This document shows positions 2,250-8,770 of a stretch of 47,602 bases of DNA, in pieces (position 1 is the stretch's first letter; every line of letters starts with the position of its first letter). A program made the translations under genes and the position numbers. The notes beneath the pieces are model-generated. The model had not been told where the DNA came from, made no database searches, and worked only from the letters and a program-made list of their open reading frames with translations. Source of the DNA: Phycisphaeraceae bacterium (GTDB lineage: Bacteria; Planctomycetota; Phycisphaerae; Phycisphaerales; UBA1924); NCBI GenBank assembly GCA_007693965.1, contig RECQ01000063.1:1-47602 (forward strand), given 5' to 3'.

Positions 2250-2524
2250 TCGGCCTCGCCTCCATCCTCCAACTCGGCCTGCTCGCCCCCGCGTACCGGC
2301 CCTTCATCGACCCGCTGCCCCTCACCGGCTGGCTGTGGTGGCTCACGCTCATTCCCCTCGCCTTCGGCGTCTCCATGGTCTACAAGGCCATCCGAGTCAG
2401 CTCGAGCTTCAACACCTACTGGCGTGAAGTCCTGCTCATGACCCTCCAGATCCTCGGCGCCATGATCGGCCTGGCCATCGGCGTGCACATCCTGATCGAG
2501 TGGCTCGTGCCGGTGTTGGAGTAG
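2246..2524 (+). CDS. Small membrane protein coupled to the DUF6677-like gene
   Basis: This 92-residue protein has two to three hydrophobic stretches: an N-terminal one near residues 1-15, WLWWLTLIPLAFGVSMVY near 28-45, and ILGAMIGLAIGVHILIEWLV near 69-88. It starts on the ATGA that also ends the previous gene, so it probably works together with the DUF6677-like protein in the inner membrane. I do not recognise a named family. The gene ends directly in a heptamer repeat array, whose first unit begins on the last base of the stop codon. Confidence 0.72.
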   Translation: MIGLASILQLGLLAPAYRPFIDPLPLTGWLWWLTLIPLAFGVSMVYKAIRVSSSFNTYWREVLLMTLQILGAMIGLAIGVHILIEWLVPVLE

Positions 2525-2607
2525 TTCTGAGTGCCGAGTGCCGAGTGCCGAGTTCCGAGTTCCGAGTTCCGAGTTCCGAGTTCTGAGTTCTGAGTTCTGA
2601 GTGTTGG
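2524..2607. repeat. Heptamer tandem array, family GTNCYGA (12 units)
   Basis: There are twelve consecutive 7-bp units: GTTCTGA, three GTGCCGA, four GTTCCGA, three GTTCTGA and GTGTTGG. Variation is confined to positions 3-5. The array starts at the stop of a plus-strand gene and sits in the gap before the convergent terminase gene. The same family recurs at 20264-20333. Confidence 0.92.
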
Positions 2608-2738
2608 GTGGCGTGTTCGGGTTGGTGTGTGGGGGATCGTGTGTGCGGGTGCCGTGGTAGAGCCGTCCGCGGCTCTGCCACGCCGCATGGAACAAGCGAT
2701 TCCGTTCTCCTTCAGACGTCCGCAAGAGTGTGTTTGCA

Positions 2739-4337
2739 TCAGGCATAACGGCGGATGGTTCCGGAGCCGGCGCGGTCCAGGTTCAGGATCATGTAGCGGA
2801 GCGCGTCCACCGCGTGGTCGGCGCCGTCCTTGACGGGTTCGATCGAATCGGGACGGTTGCGCGGGTAGTGGTAGCGCTCGATTGACTCGATGAGCCCCGT
2901 GCAGCGCGCGTGGATGAAGAGCCTCGGCGAGCCCGATGCGGGGCCCAGCCTGGCCCGCACCAGCCGCAGACCCTCCTCCAGCGACGCCCGCCGATCCTTC
3001 ACGCGCAGCCCGGCCCTCTGCAGCATCTCCTTGGCGCTCGTCGCCGTCTGGACGCCGCGTTGTCTGCCCGCCGGATCGGCGCCGATCCATGTCGGCTTCG
3101 GCCACGGCGATTCGAGGATCGCGCGGATGTGCCGCTCCAGCGCCGCCCCGCGCTCGATGCGCTCGTCGACCACGCGCAGCACGCCCTCGGCGTCGACGTG
3201 GGCCCACAGCGCCACCGTCGGCGAGCGCACGCCGAAGTCCATCCCCATGATCCACATCCCCTCGTCCGGCGCCTCGAACGCGCCGATGTGAATCTCCCGC
3301 TCGAACTCCGGCAGCACCAGGTGCGACCGGCGCGGGCGCTCGCACAGCATCTCCGAACGCCACGCCTCCTCGCCGCTGCGGCCTTTGAGCGCGATCGCAT
3401 CGTCGATCCCGATGTGCCCGCTCGCGCCCTTCGCCCGCCCGGCGCACTCCGGCAGCAGCTCGCACGGCTCGCACGGGCGTTCGGGCGCGCACCGCTCCAG
3501 CACGTCCACCACGCCCCAGCGGAAGAGGCGCCGGGGGGCGTGGGCGCCCACGAGCCCGAAGCGCGAGCGAGGGCTTTCTTTGATCGTCGCGTGCGTTTCG
3601 GGGTGCGTCGCTTGCGCTCCGGGGTCCCTCGCTTGCGCTTCGGGCTCGTATTCGGGCTCGGATGCGCCGCCCGCGCACGACGACACGATCTCGGCCATCA
3701 ATCCATGGGGTTCGTGCATCGTGCTCAGGCACTCCACCGCTCCGCGCACAAAGATCCCGCCGCAGCGCTTCGAGCGCGGCGCGAGCTGTGCCGCGGCCCA
3801 GATGTCGGGATCGAAGAGCTCGACCTCGTCGCAGCGTAGCTTTTGAGGACGGGCGCCGCGGACCGATGTCGCTGACTGGGCCAGCACCTCCGCGACCGAC
3901 CCGTTCCGCAGCCGCACGCGCCGTTCGGTGATTCGCCCCTCGACCAGGCCCGCCATGTGCGCAGCGCTGAAGAGGGCGCGCAGGTGCGCGTGCATCCGGC
4001 CCGACTGCTCCAGCGAGCCGCCGAGGATCCGCACCTCGATTCCCGGCTTGAAGACCAGGTCGAGCATGGTGGCGACAGCGCCGAGAAACGTCTTCCCCCC
4101 GCCGCGGCAGGCCCAGACGACGCAGTCCGCCGTCCGCGAAGATCCGGGCGGCGCGAAACGGCCCTCGAAAAACGTGTGAACCAGGTAGTCGAAGGGCGCG
4201 GAGCTTCCCTCCGCCAGCGGCGAGCGCGGAACGTCGAGATCGTGCACCAGCCGCAGCCACGCGTGGAGCTGCTCGGGCGTGCGCGGGCGCACGCGCCCGA
4301 GCAGCTCGCGCCGGCGGCGCGTCAGCGCGACGATCAT
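2739..4337 (-). CDS. Phage-type terminase large subunit (TerL)
   Basis: This 532-residue protein has the TerL two-domain plan. The ATPase domain has the Walker A motif ACRGGGKT at 77-84, a Walker B-like LRCDEVE near 167-173 and a coupling-motif candidate LSTMHEP near 205. An RNase-H-like nuclease domain follows, with acidic residues in MGMDFGV, IGADPAG and the typical ending DHAVDALRY. The key residues are present, so it may be active. Between the domains is a four-Cys cluster (RCAPERPCEPCELLPEC), likely a zinc knuckle. Just before that, a REP-type inverted repeat is translated in frame (EPEAQARD). The ATG at 4337 overlaps the upstream gene's stop by four bases. In phages TerL pumps DNA into capsids, but no portal, capsid or tail gene is nearby. 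Confidence 0.85.
   Translation of the reverse strand: MIVALTRRRRELLGRVRPRTPEQLHAWLRLVHDLDVPRSPLAEGSSAPFDYLVHTFFEGRFAPPGSSRTADCVVWACRGGGKTFLGAVATMLDLVFKPGIEVRILGGSLEQSGRMHAHLRALFSAAHMAGLVEGRITERRVRLRNGSVAEVLAQSATSVRGARPQKLRCDEVELFDPDIWAAAQLAPRSKRCGGIFVRGAVECLSTMHEPHGLMAEIVSSCAGGASEPEYEPEAQARDPGAQATHPETHATIKESPRSRFGLVGAHAPRRLFRWGVVDVLERCAPERPCEPCELLPECAGRAKGASGHIGIDDAIALKGRSGEEAWRSEMLCERPRRSHLVLPEFEREIHIGAFEAPDEGMWIMGMDFGVRSPTVALWAHVDAEGVLRVVDERIERGAALERHIRAILESPWPKPTWIGADPAGRQRGVQTATSAKEMLQRAGLRVKDRRASLEEGLRLVRARLGPASGSPRLFIHARCTGLIESIERYHYPRNRPDSIEPVKDGADHAVDALRYMILNLDRAGSGTIRRYA
3550..3649. repeat. REPIN-like inverted pair of a 24-bp REP element, inside the terminase gene
   Basis: Arms at 3550-3573 and 3626-3649 are inverted copies of a 24-bp element with core GCCCGAAGCGC, differing at one base. 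A partial third copy lies near 3604-3624. The arrangement, two inverted REPs with a short spacer, is that of a REPIN. It is translated in frame within TerL between the ATPase and nuclease domains. Confidence 0.8.
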
Positions 4338-4897
4338 GAGTCTGCGCCGGTCGGCGCCTCCGGCGTGTCGCGCTGCCTGCGTCCCGCCGCCACCGCTTCG
4401 CCGAGCTGCTGGAGCAGGCCGCGGAGTGCGGCGTCGTCCGCTTCGCTCATGCCCGGCAGCCCGGCGTCGGGCGTCGCCATGGCGGGGAGGCCGTCGAGCT
4501 TGAGCAGATCGACGCACGCCTTGCGCGCTGTCTCCGGCGATTCGTGGTTCAGCGCCAGACGCCCCAGCGACTTCGCCGCGGCGGATCGGGCCCGGCCGAC
4601 GATCATCCCCGTCCGCGCCTCGGCCAGGCGCAGCAGGGCGCCCACGGAGGCGGCGCACTCGGGATCGTCCATCCACGAGGCGAGATCGTGCAGTGAGACG
4701 CCGTGGCGGGCGGCGATGGCGCGCAGGCCGGGGCGCCCGTCGAAAAGGTCGTCGATGAGGGAGGCGGCGCGTGTCGCGTGCGCTCCATCGTGGTCCCTCG
4801 CTTGCGCTTCGGGCTCGTAATCGGGCTCGTGTGCGGGCTCGTGTGCGGAAACTCGTTCCCGCTTGATCCGGGCGCGGCCGTTGTTTTTGACGCTCAT
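4334..4897 (-). CDS. HTH protein in the terminase cassette, possible terminase small subunit
   Basis: This 187-residue protein has a basic N-terminus (SVKNNGRARIKRER) and a helix-turn-helix near residues 57-82 (LRAIAARHGVSLHDLASWM). A helical region and a C-terminal segment follow (LLQQLGEAVAAGRRQRD). A DNA-binding protein encoded just ahead of TerL with a four-base overlap is the usual position of the small terminase subunit, which recognises packaging sites. That role is inferred from position and the HTH; the sequence does not prove it. Residues 20-40 contain EPDYEPEAQARD, the translation of another copy of the REP element found in TerL, so an insertion here too has kept the frame. Confidence 0.62.
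   Translation of the reverse strand: MSVKNNGRARIKRERVSAHEPAHEPDYEPEAQARDHDGAHATRAASLIDDLFDGRPGLRAIAARHGVSLHDLASWMDDPECAASVGALLRLAEARTGMIVGRARSAAAKSLGRLALNHESPETARKACVDLLKLDGLPAMATPDAGLPGMSEADDAALRGLLQQLGEAVAAGRRQRDTPEAPTGADS
4795..4818. repeat. 24-bp REP element within the HTH gene
   Basis: This copy is identical over 24 bases to the arm at 3626-3649 and in the same orientation. It encodes EPEAQARD within the HTH protein. Confidence 0.85.
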
Positions 4898-5088
4898 GAT
4901 GACGCCCCCTTCACGTTCAGGGCGAGGCGGAGGGCCGTGGCGCGGTCGCGGTGGCGCCGGCGCAGGGCCGCGAGGATGGCGCGGCGCTCGCCGGCGCTGA
5001 CGAAGATCGTCAGTGGGTGGGGGAGTGAATCGGTTTCAGGGGCGGCGGCGGGGGGCTCGGGTGCAGTGTTCCTTTGTTCGCTGATCAC
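4894..5088 (-). CDS. Small cassette protein of unknown function
   Basis: The protein has 64 residues and starts with GTG at 5088, preceded by AAAGGA. Its stop overlaps the start of the HTH gene by four bases (ATGA type), which supports it as a real member of the operon. The N-terminus is Pro/Ala-rich. The C-terminal half forms one basic helix (AGERRAILAALRRRHRDRATALRLAL), which could bind nucleic acid or a partner. No family is recognised. Confidence 0.55.
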   Translation of the reverse strand: MISEQRNTAPEPPAAAPETDSLPHPLTIFVSAGERRAILAALRRRHRDRATALRLALNVKGASS

Positions 5089-5139
5089 GGCGCAGCGTCC
5101 TTTCTCTTCTCCCGTGCCGGGTTTGTGTGGGAAAGACAG

Positions 5140-5174
5140 GCATCAGGCATCAGGCATCAGGCATCGGGCGTCAG
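5140..5174. repeat. Heptamer tandem array GCATCAG (5 units)
   Basis: Units are GCATCAG three times, GCATCGG and GCGTCAG. The array ends in the stop codon of the ABC-GNAT gene (5171-5173), so the last unit overlaps coding sequence. Its sequence differs from the GTNCYGA family, but the period is the same. Confidence 0.85.
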
Positions 5175-6535
5175 TGCGATGTGTGGGCGTAGCCGACGGG
5201 CGTGGCGCCTGCGTATGCGCAGGCGATGCGGAAAAGGTGTTGCGGGTCGTCTGCTTTGTGTTGTCTCGTCGAGCCGGCTGCGTTCGCCCAGCGATTGAGT
5301 TCGCGGTGGAGCAATGCGGCGGCGCCGGACTGCTCGATGCGCATCCACGCGGTTGTGGGCGAGGCGAGGCGCCACGGCTCGATTCCGATGTGTACGAGGG
5401 CGTCGAGCAGGCGGGCGTCGCGTTCGCTCGGCGGCGTGTGGTACGCGGTCATGCCGGCGCGTTCGAAGAAGGGATGCCACCGCCCCATCGCCGCCGCGGC
5501 TTCGGTGTGGGGCGTGAGCGGATCGTCGAGGTACGCGCGCACCAGCCGCGCCGCCAGCCCGACGCCGCGGCAGCGGGGGTCGACGATCACGCGCGCGATG
5601 CGCCGGATCTCGTCGTTCATGCGCCGGGCGTCGAGGCGCTTGTCGCCGGTGTCGTAGCGCCCGGGCCACGCCAGGCGTCGCCACGGCGCGTTGAGCGTGG
5701 GCATGGCGATCACGGCGGCGCCGGCGAGTTCGCCGCTCTGCGCCTCGCGGGCGATGAGCGTGCGCACAATGCGGGCCGGGCGGGCGGCGCGGTAGTGCAG
5801 GTGGGAGAGACGCTTCACATCGGCGCCTGAGCCGGGTTCGATGATGAAGCGATCGGTCGCACTTTCGCGGCGGCGATTCGTTCTCACGGCGCCGGTCATG
5901 TCGAGCTCGATCGTGCAATCGGGCCGCAGCGCAGGCGCCAGGTCGTCGCGCGTGGTGGCGACGATGGCGCCGGTGTTGCGGCTGTCGTCGATCGCCCGGC
6001 GCAGCGCCGCCGCCACGCCCCGGGCCGAGGCGCCGTCGAGGCCGGCGCCGAATTCGTCGATGACCAGCATGGTCGGGCAGGACGGGCGCCGGGCCGCGCT
6101 GTGCATCGCCAGCGCCAGCCGCAGCCGACGGCGCTGGCCGTCGGAGAGCTCGCCGGGTCGGCGCACGAAGCATCGCCCCTCCGCCAGGCCGGCGCGGGCG
6201 AGGAGGCGCAGCGATTCATCGAGGGGCGCGCGGAAGAGGTCGACGATGGGCGCTGCGCGCAGGCGGAGCGAATCCGGATCGATGATGCGCCGGCCGTCTT
6301 CGCGAGCCGCAACAGCCGCGGCCCGGAGCAGCGTCGATTTCCCGGCGCCGCTGGGGCCGGTGATCAGCGTGACCGCGCCCGAGCGCAGCGGCAGGCGGGC
6401 CTCGATGGGCGGCGCTGACCCGTGTTCGTCGAGGTTCATGCCCAGCATGCGGGCCGCCTCGCAGACGCGGCGCGTCGGCGCGGAGGGCGTGAGCGCGGGT
6501 GTGCGCACGGTTGTGGTCGGTTCGGTGCGTCGCAT
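5171..6535 (-). CDS. ABC-type ATPase fused to a GNAT-like acetyltransferase domain (COG2401-like)
   Basis: This 454-residue protein starts at the ATG at 6535, which overlaps the upstream stop by one base. The N-terminal half is an ABC ATPase without membrane segments: Walker A GPSGAGKS at 60-67, signature LSDGQ at 130-134 and Walker B MLVIDE at 156-161 followed by FGAGLD. The C-terminal half (about 225-430) looks like a GNAT fold, with an acetyl-CoA loop candidate CRGVGLAARLV and an FFERAGM segment. The domain order matches COG2401, ABC-type ATPases fused to a predicted acetyltransferase, whose function is unknown. Being soluble and next to a terminase, it more likely acts on nucleic acid or a macromolecule than in transport; that is inference. 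Confidence 0.78.
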   Translation of the reverse strand: MRRTEPTTTVRTPALTPSAPTRRVCEAARMLGMNLDEHGSAPPIEARLPLRSGAVTLITGPSGAGKSTLLRAAAVAAREDGRRIIDPDSLRLRAAPIVDLFRAPLDESLRLLARAGLAEGRCFVRRPGELSDGQRRRLRLALAMHSAARRPSCPTMLVIDEFGAGLDGASARGVAAALRRAIDDSRNTGAIVATTRDDLAPALRPDCTIELDMTGAVRTNRRRESATDRFIIEPGSGADVKRLSHLHYRAARPARIVRTLIAREAQSGELAGAAVIAMPTLNAPWRRLAWPGRYDTGDKRLDARRMNDEIRRIARVIVDPRCRGVGLAARLVRAYLDDPLTPHTEAAAAMGRWHPFFERAGMTAYHTPPSERDARLLDALVHIGIEPWRLASPTTAWMRIEQSGAAALLHRELNRWANAAGSTRQHKADDPQHLFRIACAYAGATPVGYAHTSH

Positions 6536-6972
6536 CACGCCGCTTGCGCCTCTTCGAGGGCTGCGACGGCCGCCATCTGTCCGCGAACGGTGTGCAGCGA
6601 CAGCCGCAGATGGCTGGCGGTCTCGCGCATGGTCCGCCCCTGGAGGACGCACACGGTCGCGACGCGTCGCCTCGTCGGGGGCCACTGCTCGCGCCGGCGC
6701 ATGACGAACTCGTAGCGCTTCGAGAGCACGCGCAGGACAAGGCGGCGGAGGCGGCGCCGCACGTGCCGGGCCGGCTCGCCCCGGAGCTTTGCGACCTCCG
6801 CCGCGGTCAGCCCGTCGCGGTAGACGGCGCAGACCAGGGCCCGGTCCTCGGGCATGAGCCAGGCCGAGCGGTCCACGATCAGCTCGGCCAGGTCGCTGCG
6901 CCGACGGCGCCGGAGGTCCGCGGCCTCGGCGGGGTCGATGCGCCTGAAATCAGATGTCTTCGTCGCCTGCAT
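6535..6972 (-). CDS. Double helix-turn-helix protein, sigma-factor region 4-like
   Basis: This 145-residue protein starts at the ATG at 6972, with AGGAAGGGGG a few bases upstream. It carries two HTH-like units: DRALVCAVYRDGLTAAEVAK near residues 45-65, resembling sigma-70 region 4, and GRTMRETASHLRLSLHTVRG near 112-132, resembling LuxR/sigma-4 repeats. No region 2 is present, so it is not a full sigma factor. It is the first gene of the leftward cassette and faces the LexA-like gene across a 154-bp divergent region, so it may be a late-gene activator under that repressor's control (inference). Translation is coupled to the ABC-GNAT gene. Confidence 0.68.
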   Translation of the reverse strand: MQATKTSDFRRIDPAEAADLRRRRRSDLAELIVDRSAWLMPEDRALVCAVYRDGLTAAEVAKLRGEPARHVRRRLRRLVLRVLSKRYEFVMRRREQWPPTRRRVATVCVLQGRTMRETASHLRLSLHTVRGQMAAVAALEEAQAA

Positions 6973-7022
6973 GGCGTCCCCCTTCCTGTCGTGGGCCCGC
7001 TCCGGGGCCGACCGGCTGAAAA

Positions 7023-7044
7023 AAGTTCGCGATACGGCGAACTT
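7023..7044. promoter_or_regulatory. Palindromic operator candidate in the divergent region
   Basis: AAGTTCGC and GCGAACTT form a perfect 8-bp inverted repeat around GATACG. It lies between the divergent LexA-like and double-HTH genes. A related imperfect site is at 7089-7106, sharing about 12 of 18 positions when reversed. Such a pair fits a self-regulated repressor acting on both promoters. Confidence 0.6.
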
Positions 7045-7088
7045 GTTTCCATTTTGTACGGGGTCACGGTATGCTTTGCAAGGTGTTT

Positions 7089-7106
7089 GTTTGGTATCTC
7101 GCCAAC
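7089..7106. promoter_or_regulatory. Second, weaker operator-like site
   Basis: GTTTGGTATCTCGCCAAC carries outer arms TTGG and CCAA. In reverse orientation it resembles the palindrome at 7023-7044. It lies just ahead of the start of the LexA-like gene, where binding would block its own transcription. Confidence 0.4.
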
Positions 7107-7126
7107 TCGGCGCACGGAGAATGGAC

Positions 7127-7942
7127 ATGCGGACGGTGGGACGTCTGATCGGGTCGCGTCGGGCGGCGCTGGGCATGACGCTGCAGCAGCTCGCCGACGC
7201 GTCGGGCTGCGGCAAGGGGTATCTCTCGGAGATCGAGAACGGGCGCCGGCCGGGGCCGCCGTCGGATCGGATTCTGCAGAATCTGGAGAGGGCGCTGCTG
7301 CTCGAGCCGGGGACGCTGGTGAAGGCGGCGCGCTGGCAGTCAACGCCGGCGCAGGTGCGGCGCGAGGTGCAGGGGATGCGCCGCGCCGGGCGCATCGCGC
7401 GCGAGCTGGTCGAGCTTGTGAAGGACGGCGGCCTGGACGAGGCGCACCGGAGCGGATCGCTGCAGCGGCTGGTGGAGCGTCTGGCGCCGACGGCGAACAT
7501 CGAGCGCACGCCGCTGCCGGTGCAGGTGCCGGTGATCAACAGCGTGGCGGCGGGATACCCGCGCGAGTTCACCGACCTCGGGTATCCGGCGCGGGTGGCG
7601 GATGACTATGTGGCGGCGCCGGACCTGATGGACCCGGAGGCGTTCGCGGCGAGGGTGGTGGGCGACTCGATGGCGCCGCTGTACGCGGAGGGGGACATCG
7701 TGGTCTTCAGCCCGGAGCGCGACACGGCGCCGGGCTCGGACTGCTTCGTGCGCCTGGAGCGCGACGGGGAGACGACGTTCAAGCGGGTGTATTTCGAGGT
7801 GGATGCCGAGACGGGCGCGGAGCTGATCCGGCTGCAGCCGCTGAACAGTGAATATCCGGCGCGGACCGTCGGGAGGGAGGAGGTGGCGGGGATGTATGCG
7901 GCGGTGTACGTGATTCGGGCGGTGGGTGCGGGGGGCAGATAG
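7127..7942 (+). CDS. LexA/CI-type repressor: XRE HTH plus S24 self-cleaving domain
   Basis: The 271-residue product starts at ATG 7127. An in-frame ATG at 7121 is possible, but the GGAG at 7116-7119 is spaced correctly only for 7127. Residues 1-60 form an XRE helix-turn-helix (MTLQQLADASGCGKGYLSEI). The C-terminal half is an S24 peptidase domain with Ser181 in VVGDSMAPL and Lys219 in TTFKRVY. Ala142-Gly143 in NSVAAGYP matches the LexA self-cleavage site. All parts needed for DNA-damage-induced self-cleavage are therefore visible. It diverges from the terminase cassette and is probably its SOS-responsive repressor. Its stop merges into an octamer repeat array. Confidence 0.85.
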   Translation: MRTVGRLIGSRRAALGMTLQQLADASGCGKGYLSEIENGRRPGPPSDRILQNLERALLLEPGTLVKAARWQSTPAQVRREVQGMRRAGRIARELVELVKDGGLDEAHRSGSLQRLVERLAPTANIERTPLPVQVPVINSVAAGYPREFTDLGYPARVADDYVAAPDLMDPEAFAARVVGDSMAPLYAEGDIVVFSPERDTAPGSDCFVRLERDGETTFKRVYFEVDAETGAELIRLQPLNSEYPARTVGREEVAGMYAAVYVIRAVGAGGR

Positions 7943-8019
7943 CCAAATGGCCAAATGGCCAAATTGCCAAATGGCCAAAGGGGGGAAAGCAGCAAAGCGG
8001 CAAAGCGGAAAGCAGCAAA
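7942..8019. repeat. Octamer tandem arrays GCCAAATG and GC(A/G)GCAAA
   Basis: Four 8-bp units GCCAAATG/T and a partial one run from 7942 to 7980, beginning on the last base of the stop codon. A second set, GCAGCAAA, GCGGCAAA, GCGGAAA and GCAGCAAA, covers 7989-8019. The arrays lie between the convergent LexA-like and methyltransferase genes. Confidence 0.85.
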
Positions 8020-8041
8020 GGGGGGAGGGGCTGCGCCTGGT

Positions 8042-8770
8042 TCAGTCGGTCCATGCGTCTGGTCGCTCGCCGGCGAGTGTGAAGCGGTAGCGGAGGGGCG
8101 AGCGGCGGTATTCGCACCAGGTGAGGTCGAGGCGGTTGCGGAGGTCGAGGACTTCGGCTTTGGTGAATCCGGCTTCCACGCTGACGACGGCGTCGTGCTT
8201 CACGATCTGCGGCGCACGAATGGTCGCGATGCGGGCGCCAAGCATCGACAGCCTTGATCGGACCAGGTCGCTCCACACCAGCCCCGCGCCGGCGAGGCGG
8301 TCCATGATGCGGAGGACCGTAAGAACCTCGATGTCAGGCAGGTGATGCAGGAAGAGCCCGGCGTGGACATAGTCGAACGAGTGCGGCTCGTGCTCATCCA
8401 TCAGGCGGCGCGCATCGGCCTGACGCAGCTCGATCGCATCGGCGGCGCCAGCGCGCTCGACCTGCTCGCGGGCGATCTCGAGCGTCTTCTCGTGCATGTC
8501 GACCGCGGTGATGCGCAGGTCGAACCCGGCCCGCTCGGCCCACGCGCGGGCGGCGATGGGGATGTCGGCGCTGCCGGTGGCGATGTCAAGGAGTGTGACG
8601 GGGCGGTCGCGGGGCCAGCGGGATGACCAGACTTGCAGATGGGAAAGGAGCGCGCTTACGCCGCCGAGACGGGCGTTGAGGGCGCGAAGAAACCGAAGCG
8701 ATCGCTCCAGTTCGTCACGCGGGACGTTCGGATCATCCATGAGCTCGGGTGTGAGTCGGCGATTGTTCAT
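8042..8770 (-). CDS. Class I SAM-dependent methyltransferase
   Basis: This 242-residue protein shows the class I methyltransferase core: motif I LLDIATGSADIP near residues 80-91, an acidic end of strand 2 (ITAVDMHEKTL), motif II-like ADARRLM and a YVHAGLFLHHL strand 4/post region as in UbiE-type enzymes. The N-terminus (DELERSLRFLRALNARLGG) resembles methyltransferases found beside type III polyketide synthases, which act on small hydrophobic molecules, but no such gene is in this window. Substrate unknown. It is a single-gene unit, convergent with the repressor gene and divergent from the yihY gene. Confidence 0.8.
   Translation of the reverse strand: MNNRRLTPELMDDPNVPRDELERSLRFLRALNARLGGVSALLSHLQVWSSRWPRDRPVTLLDIATGSADIPIAARAWAERAGFDLRITAVDMHEKTLEIAREQVERAGAADAIELRQADARRLMDEHEPHSFDYVHAGLFLHHLPDIEVLTVLRIMDRLAGAGLVWSDLVRSRLSMLGARIATIRAPQIVKHDAVVSVEAGFTKAEVLDLRNRLDLTWCEYRRSPLRYRFTLAGERPDAWTD

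Follow-up and report, generated by a model that had tools for sequence, protein, structure and literature searches.

The window analysed here is the whole of one contig (C60; RECQ01000063.1, 47,602 bases) from the 3.48 Mb, 74-contig assembly of a Phycisphaeraceae bacterium (GCA_007693965.1). It contains a compact cassette of regulatory and DNA-packaging genes, which is probably the control and packaging half of a dispersed, vertically inherited element resembling a gene transfer agent (GTA), with its head genes on other contigs. The cassette consists of an S24 repressor gene on the forward strand (7121–7942) facing five genes on the reverse strand, which run from 6972 down to 2739: HTH2, with two helix-turn-helix (HTH) units (6535–6972); an ABC-type ATPase fused to a GNAT acyltransferase domain (5171–6535); a protein of 64 amino acids (4894–5088); a small terminase-like protein, TerS (4334–4897); and the large terminase TerL (2739–4337). 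Every gene named in an earlier note on this DNA is present, as judged from open reading frames and matches to Pfam or phrog profiles. The short overlaps that the note described are found at three joins (1–4 nucleotides), but the genes for the 64-residue protein and ABC-GNAT are separated by about 82 nucleotides. The note was also right that portal and capsid genes are missing here: profiles for portal, scaffold, capsid, connector and the small head genes found no match in the window, in a scan that did not extend to integrase and lysis genes over its whole length. An Rfam scan of 2400–8100 gave nothing at the gathering score.

TerL consists of a packaging ATPase and an RNase H-like nuclease, with an insert containing four Cys. 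The nuclease half matches Pfam Terminase_6C over the cut-off (E 3e-8), and the protein matches phrog_2 (E 4e-14). In an alignment of 41 TerL sequences, one of which (L063, from genome G045) has an internal stop, the residues that we take to be the Walker A motif, the Walker B Asp-Glu and the nuclease Asp are invariant throughout, as are the four Cys. There are 264 TerL relatives in titled genome contigs, and the titles are nearly all Phycisphaer- names or Planctomycetota, the others being Tepidisphaera, plain "bacterium" and Cyanobacteria. The matches among viral contigs (46) have identities of 20–39%, and in two of these contigs (L166 and L205) the TerL ATPase, of about 300 residues, and the RNase H-like nuclease occupy separate open reading frames. 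The plasmid matches (155) are all distant, none spanning over 80% of the query, with a coverage of 40% among the matches listed. Positions 181–268 of the TerL profile (alignment A1), around the four-Cys insert, match cyanovirin-N (E 0.004 as a single unit, 4e-7 in tandem), which is perhaps a chance match. We also note a 23-base repeat with 63 copies in this genome (28 + 35, allowing up to 2 mismatches; none in the reversed control), copies of which are translated, in frame, as part of TerL and TerS at 3552–3574, 3625–3647 and 4794–4816.

The TerS-like protein has no Pfam match, its sole profile match is to phrog_2538 (E 0.07), and a search of the PDB gave nothing at E 0.001. Its homologues lie directly before TerL in 16 of 40 loci from the order and in 13 of the 32 additional class loci. 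The AlphaFold2 model (pLDDT 78, pTM 0.44) has an N-terminal HTH-like helix pair (residues 58–64 and 69–75) and a helical core, and fits weakly to the TerS proteins of PaP3 (6w7t, Z 4.8) and NV1 (Z 4.1), which is insufficient on its own to prove kinship. In several families a ParB-like gene is found between GNAT and TerS, the place occupied here by the 64-residue protein. The ParB profile matches a short homologue in genome G147 (E 4e-7) and does not match the copy in the window, which is probably what is left of the C-terminal part of a ParB-like protein kept whole in relatives.

The ABC-GNAT protein matches ABC_tran over the cut-off, and its Pfam matches to GNAT fall below it; the AlphaFold2 model of this second part (pLDDT 88.6) has a GNAT fold. 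Mu Mom is among the closest fits (Z 12.8, 141 residues aligned, 2.9 Å), level with a large number of acetyltransferases. The ABC and GNAT parts are encoded by two separate genes in several relatives and in phages. ABC-GNAT was considered as a strict partner of TerL and rejected, the two occurring together in 93 genomes, TerL alone in 12 and GNAT alone in 31. These 31, out of 124 genomes with GNAT, include 23 from families f8 and f19, which have no TerL or capsid match and keep a fused ABC-GNAT protein of about 500 residues (L365–L369). At two of the five such loci fetched (L367 and L369), an S24 repressor adjoins it.

The S24 protein is a LexA/CI-type repressor with a Peptidase_S24 domain (E 1.6e-16) and HTH_3. 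The earlier note saw its cleavage residues as complete, and the Gly of the Ala-Gly site, Ser183 and Lys221 are each kept in 33 of 36 repressors. Because these residues are kept, induction by DNA damage is plausible. HTH2 matches Sigma70_r4 in two stretches (E 2.7e-7), which form two sigma-70 region 4-like units, and we propose that it is an activator. Between the two genes is a dyad, GTTCG-N8-CGAAC (7025–7042), which is a candidate operator for the repressor. Among 34 such intergenic regions, GTTCA-N8-TGAAC occurs exactly in 11, whereas in ten shuffles any one dyad reached at most 1–2; when up to 2 mismatches are allowed it is found at 26 of 33 other loci, the shuffle control applying to the exact count only.

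The arrangement S24 | HTH2-ABC-GNAT-(ParB)-TerS-TerL recurs class-wide. The 40 loci fetched from the order keep this gene order, with TerL accompanied by ABC-GNAT in 38, HTH2 in 36, S24 in 35 and TerS in 16. The 32 further loci from the class sample (L209–L240, four of them from the same order) have both ABC and GNAT before TerL in 23, HTH2 in 21 and S24 in 12. The cassette is kept in part at L210, L229 and L238; at L217, L224, L226, L227 and L230 TerL was found without other cassette genes nearby, and at L223 with only a distant TerS-like match. Chance, which the earlier note had allowed for, is far exceeded by this recurrence in other Phycisphaerae. A survey of flanks (up to 10 kb, often less) around the best 80 of the 264 TerL relatives found TerL in 80, GNAT in 71, ABC in 66, HTH2 in 64, S24 in 56, ParB in 33 and TerS in 19; portal and capsid were found in none of these flanks, many of which are shorter than 10 kb. 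This absence would favour a capsid-borrowing satellite or a packaging unit standing alone, both of which we regard as very improbable given the head genes found elsewhere in these genomes.

In the genome to which the window belongs there is no match to the TerL_ATPase (PF03354), portal (PF04860) or capsid (PF05065) profiles, and these blanks at first suggested a capsid-less unit. That idea was overturned by matches to two other families, PF05133 and PF17236. Among the 61 genomes of the order, PF04860 exceeds the cut-off in 6 and PF05065 likewise in 6; both of these HK97-type profiles gave matches in a Caulobacter control. The SPP1-type portal PF05133, which is the portal family of phage nickie, is found in 48 of the 61 (45 over the cut-off), as a single match in all but one (G048). 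The genome studied here has this portal on contig C61 (44–1585), and its scaffold, capsid (phrog_1328), connector, H9, H8, membrane protein and lipoprotein genes occupy the start of contig C7. The portal gene ends at base 44 of C61, the ends of the two contigs do not overlap, and the break may be due to a tandem repeat in which C7 starts. Profiles of the connector and H9 gave no solved-structure match of note.

Further head genes accompany the portal in 18 of 19 portal loci, the remaining one being that of the genome studied here, cut by the contig end. They follow the order portal, scaffold-like, capsid (PF17236), connector-like and small proteins, and a capsid component is found in 17 of the 19 (a short fragment in L256 and L261; missing in L260). 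The capsid is of SU10 type (E 2.5e-88 in G044) and occurs in 90 of 198 class genomes, with one match in 81. TerL is present in 50 of the 61 order genomes and in 105 of the 198 class genomes, as a single match in 99 of the 105; of the six others, two full copies are found in G124 and two partial, overlapping ones in G144, the remainder being split matches. The two genes have a strong tendency to occur together: 85 class genomes have both, 20 TerL only, 5 capsid only and 88 neither (Fisher p 1.6e-29). In L213 they are joined, with S24, HTH2, ABC, GNAT, TerL, portal, scaffold, capsid, connector, H8 and T16 in one cluster, and six loci (L266, L267, L268, L269, L271 and L278) contain parts of such a cluster within about 11 kb. 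On the single-contig genomes looked at, TerL and capsid are 11 to 981 kb apart, and in the genome studied here the element's genes are spread over C60, C61 and C7.

The earlier note had offered three options: a domesticated packaging or DNA-processing unit, a capsid-borrowing satellite, and the regulatory and packaging share of a GTA, with the rest located elsewhere. The last is strongly supported by the portal on C61, by the scaffold and capsid on C7 and by the co-occurrence across the class. Since capsid and portal genes are present in this genome, the second option and the first, taken as a unit lacking a capsid, are disfavoured; such genomes have a co-evolving portal and capsid, and the joined clusters, as in L213, largely refute a satellite or a lone packaging unit.

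In the phylum sample the capsid profile matched 42 of 294 genomes, 22 of them outside the class; 18 of these 22 have only a diverged match to the nuclease half of TerL, and we therefore restrict our claim to the class. Three contigs labelled viral in IMG/VR (L285–L287) encode capsids 58–62% identical to those of this type of element. The head cluster is present on L287, so these contigs may be GTA loci of bacterial chromosomes that were labelled as viral, and the element may account for some of the viral contigs bearing its capsid.

Trees of TerL, capsid and host RpoB were compared for 24 genomes having both TerL and capsid. All six multi-member families are monophyletic in each of the three trees, and the distances are strongly correlated (Mantel r 0.847 for TerL–RpoB, 0.831 for capsid–RpoB and 0.763 for TerL–capsid, each reached in 0 of 9999 permutations). 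Within the window's own family (12 genomes) the capsid–RpoB correlation is 0.629 (1 of 9999) and the TerL–capsid correlation 0.394 (116 of 9999). Mean tree distances are 2.27 for TerL, 0.92 for capsid and 0.69 for RpoB. Pairwise dN/dS within two genera is 0.10–0.24 for TerL and 0.11–0.16 for capsid, and 0.09–0.46 (mostly 0.1–0.35) over all genes tested. TerL and capsid are under purifying selection and have co-diversified with their hosts.

These results bear on whether the loci could simply be ordinary or decaying prophages that happen to be common in these bacteria. All of the parts are phage-derived, phages share the packaging gene order, genuine prophage-type HK97 capsid and portal genes are each present in the 6 of 61 genomes noted above, and the set forms one cluster in L213. 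Some copies are decaying: in G045, TerL has an internal TAA and the capsid remains only as a fragment. The element is also lost in places: in family f2, TerL is absent from all six genomes of the order sample and present in 1 of 10 of the class sample. The earlier note held that capsid, portal and integrase genes joined to the cassette in relatives would indicate a plain prophage remnant; capsid and portal are indeed joined to it in some relatives of the class, with no integrase in view there. Among the cassette and head proteins of the genome studied here no integrase family was found, integrases not having been searched genome-wide. Against a prophage, TerL is a single match in nearly all carriers, its tree and that of the capsid match the host RpoB tree, both genes are under purifying selection, and a host gene at 1728–2249 has counterparts close to TerL at 19 of 40 loci. 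There is also no single excisable element where TerL and capsid are 11 to 981 kb apart. Near-single copy, host co-diversification and dispersal make a GTA likelier than a prophage remnant, and we consider a prophage family unlikely.

We regard as quite unlikely an alternative in which a domesticated element serves defence or DNA repair, by making particles or cutting DNA, and not gene transfer. It would fit the LexA/CI-type control, and also the occurrence of ABC-GNAT without TerL in 31 of 124 genomes, with S24 adjoining it at two of five loci. However, the core set is near single-copy rather than patchy or fast-swapping, and portal, scaffold and capsid are kept with it.

Several observations weigh against a GTA-like element. 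The TerL–RpoB correlation within the window's own family is weak (r 0.275, 421 of 9999). The head genes of the genome studied here are on contigs separate from each other and their junction is unproven, and no tail genes were identified in the family. The capsid profile has more than one match in 9 of 90 genomes (five in G039, and a second, diverged one in G147), and because PF17236 is also a phage family, a few of the counted capsids may belong to prophages. There are 20 genomes among the 105 with TerL that have no capsid match, and 5 with capsid and no TerL match; for TerL and portal in the 61 order genomes the counts are 44 with both, 6 TerL only, 4 portal only and 7 neither (p 8.5e-4). The capsid gene is interrupted in G211, G035 and G002. 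The exact dyad was found at none of the 19 portal loci, so that the link between cassette and head genes is statistical and positional. All of the evidence comes from sequence.

Of several sites with 1 mismatch at these loci, only one, in L260 (G045), lies within 300 bases before the portal match. An operator common to the cassette and the head cluster was also sought and rejected, the best shared 18-mers in 15 genomes being mostly no better than those in four shuffles or other genomes; shared words beat the shuffles in G010 (1 mismatch) and G002 (2 mismatches).

Inserts of 11.6 kb in G211 and 11.1 kb in G035 interrupt the capsid gene at the identical codon, after about residue 62 (L273 5258–16820 in G211; L261 and L280 in G035), and the left junction in G002 (L256) is the same. 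Capsid matches are split at that same place in G128, G061, G048 and G209. Within the G211 insert are genes for a large serine integrase (phrog_95, E 2e-82), a primase-like ATPase and a DNA methylase, together with a sigma-like factor and a protein like endonuclease VII; the insert also has its own capsid-protease fusion (PF25209, E 3e-40). As a guess, the insert might be a GTA satellite or parasite that swaps in its own capsid, or a switch that requires excision.

Taken together, the data make it likely that the window is the control and packaging half of a dispersed GTA-like element inherited vertically, with its head genes on other contigs. Because the dyad was not found before the head genes, we propose a cascade in which S24 would repress HTH2 and HTH2 would activate the head genes. 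S24 would bind the dyad between itself and HTH2 and would cut itself on DNA damage or a similar signal, whereupon HTH2 would switch on the head genes. Host DNA would then be driven by TerS and TerL into the capsid by way of the portal, ABC-GNAT, joined by ParB in relatives, might handle or modify the DNA, and lysis would release particles that hand it to kin. The element probably makes particles; that they carry random host DNA to kin is somewhat likely, a view based on the kind of element and its anatomy. A fuller reading is rather unlikely as a whole: an independent domestication in Planctomycetota, dating from about the class ancestor, with a LexA/CI-type switch, marking of DNA by ABC-GNAT and ParB, and a parasite of the capsid gene. 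The marks, made before or during packaging, would let kin recognise or protect transferred DNA, and the parasite would be the 11-kb integrase element, which would insert in the capsid gene and bring its own capsid.

Few GTAs are known and most are alphaproteobacterial, with very few outside that class according to the relevant passages of PMC12946183. A class-wide GTA in Planctomycetota, if true, would mean that domestication had taken place independently there, and would give bacteria that are largely uncultured a route of gene exchange. The element also suggests a way of finding GTAs, by looking for TerL, portal and capsid genes that, though unlinked, are near single-copy, vary together and follow the host trees. 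The literature searched on GTAs or terminases in Planctomycetota and Phycisphaerae contained no description of such an element in Planctomycetota, the sole planctomycete TerL lead being a Zavarzinella prophage with an RcGTA-related TerL, mentioned in part of PMC7947584.

Comparison with phages does not support one point of the earlier note, which took the tight linkage of ABC-GNAT to TerL as the unusual part, since phages share it. Four of 30 phage records with an ABC-GNAT match were compared. Nickie, RHEph10 and PhiR41_1 have the order ParB, ABC, GNAT, TerL, and SSU5 is alike up to the end of the record, with TerL outside the stretch. E-values with our profiles are 3e-7 to 2e-12 for ParB, 1e-56 to 6e-59 for ABC, 1e-12 to 4e-20 for GNAT and, in the first three phages, 1e-24 to 9e-28 for TerL. 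The phages place ParB first, whereas the planctomycete relatives place it after GNAT. An annotated portal follows TerL in nickie and RHEph10, with the capsid soon after in nickie, and an SPP1-type portal follows TerL in viral contig L163. Unlike the element, these phages have genomes of 103–115 kb, and the nickie capsid is phrog_212 whereas that found here is phrog_1328. The GNAT fold in the model resembles Mu Mom, with which many other GNATs tie. ABC-coupled GNAT proteins are predicted to acylate DNA bases (in the sections of PMC7824862 concerned with them), and the likeness to that system lies in the pairing of ABC with GNAT.

The capsid and portal families of RcGTA-type elements are presumably PF05065 and PF04860, neither of which has a match in this genome; the element has PF17236 and PF05133 instead. 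A capsid-stealing satellite would have no capsid of its own, whereas this genome has both capsid and portal. A plain prophage would form one contiguous, excisable cluster with an integrase; the genes are contiguous in L213 and dispersed in most genomes looked at. The definition set out in parts of PMC9662315 requires caudoviricete-derived proteins, particles with mostly random host DNA, an endogenized and often multi-locus genome that is not fully packageable, mostly vertical inheritance, and delivery to other cells. The element encodes homologues of TerL, portal, scaffold-like protein and SU10-type capsid; it is endogenized over several loci; and it is inherited vertically with host co-diversification, with the weak TerL correlation in the window's own family. 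Since its genes are dispersed, its genome is likely not to be fully packageable. It resembles RcGTA, CcGTA, BaGTA and BhGTA/VSH-1, as portrayed in portions of PMC9662315 and PMC11841831, in its phage-derived capsid, portal and TerL, its multiple loci and its co-diversification with hosts. It differs from known GTAs in its phylum, in its S24 repressor and in having ABC-GNAT and ParB in the packaging operon. Its TerS may differ too: it has no Pfam match, and its AlphaFold2 model has HTH-like helices. The TerS proteins of known GTAs have no detectable DNA-binding domain according to PMC11841831. The Caulobacter GTA has the repressor RogA acting over the activator GafYZ (from a portion of PMC11150451), and the repressor, activator and structural cluster proposed here would probably follow a similar design. 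Judged by its sequence, the element would act like a GTA, sharing three of the defining features, and it differs from the RcGTA type in its capsid and portal families and its accessory genes.

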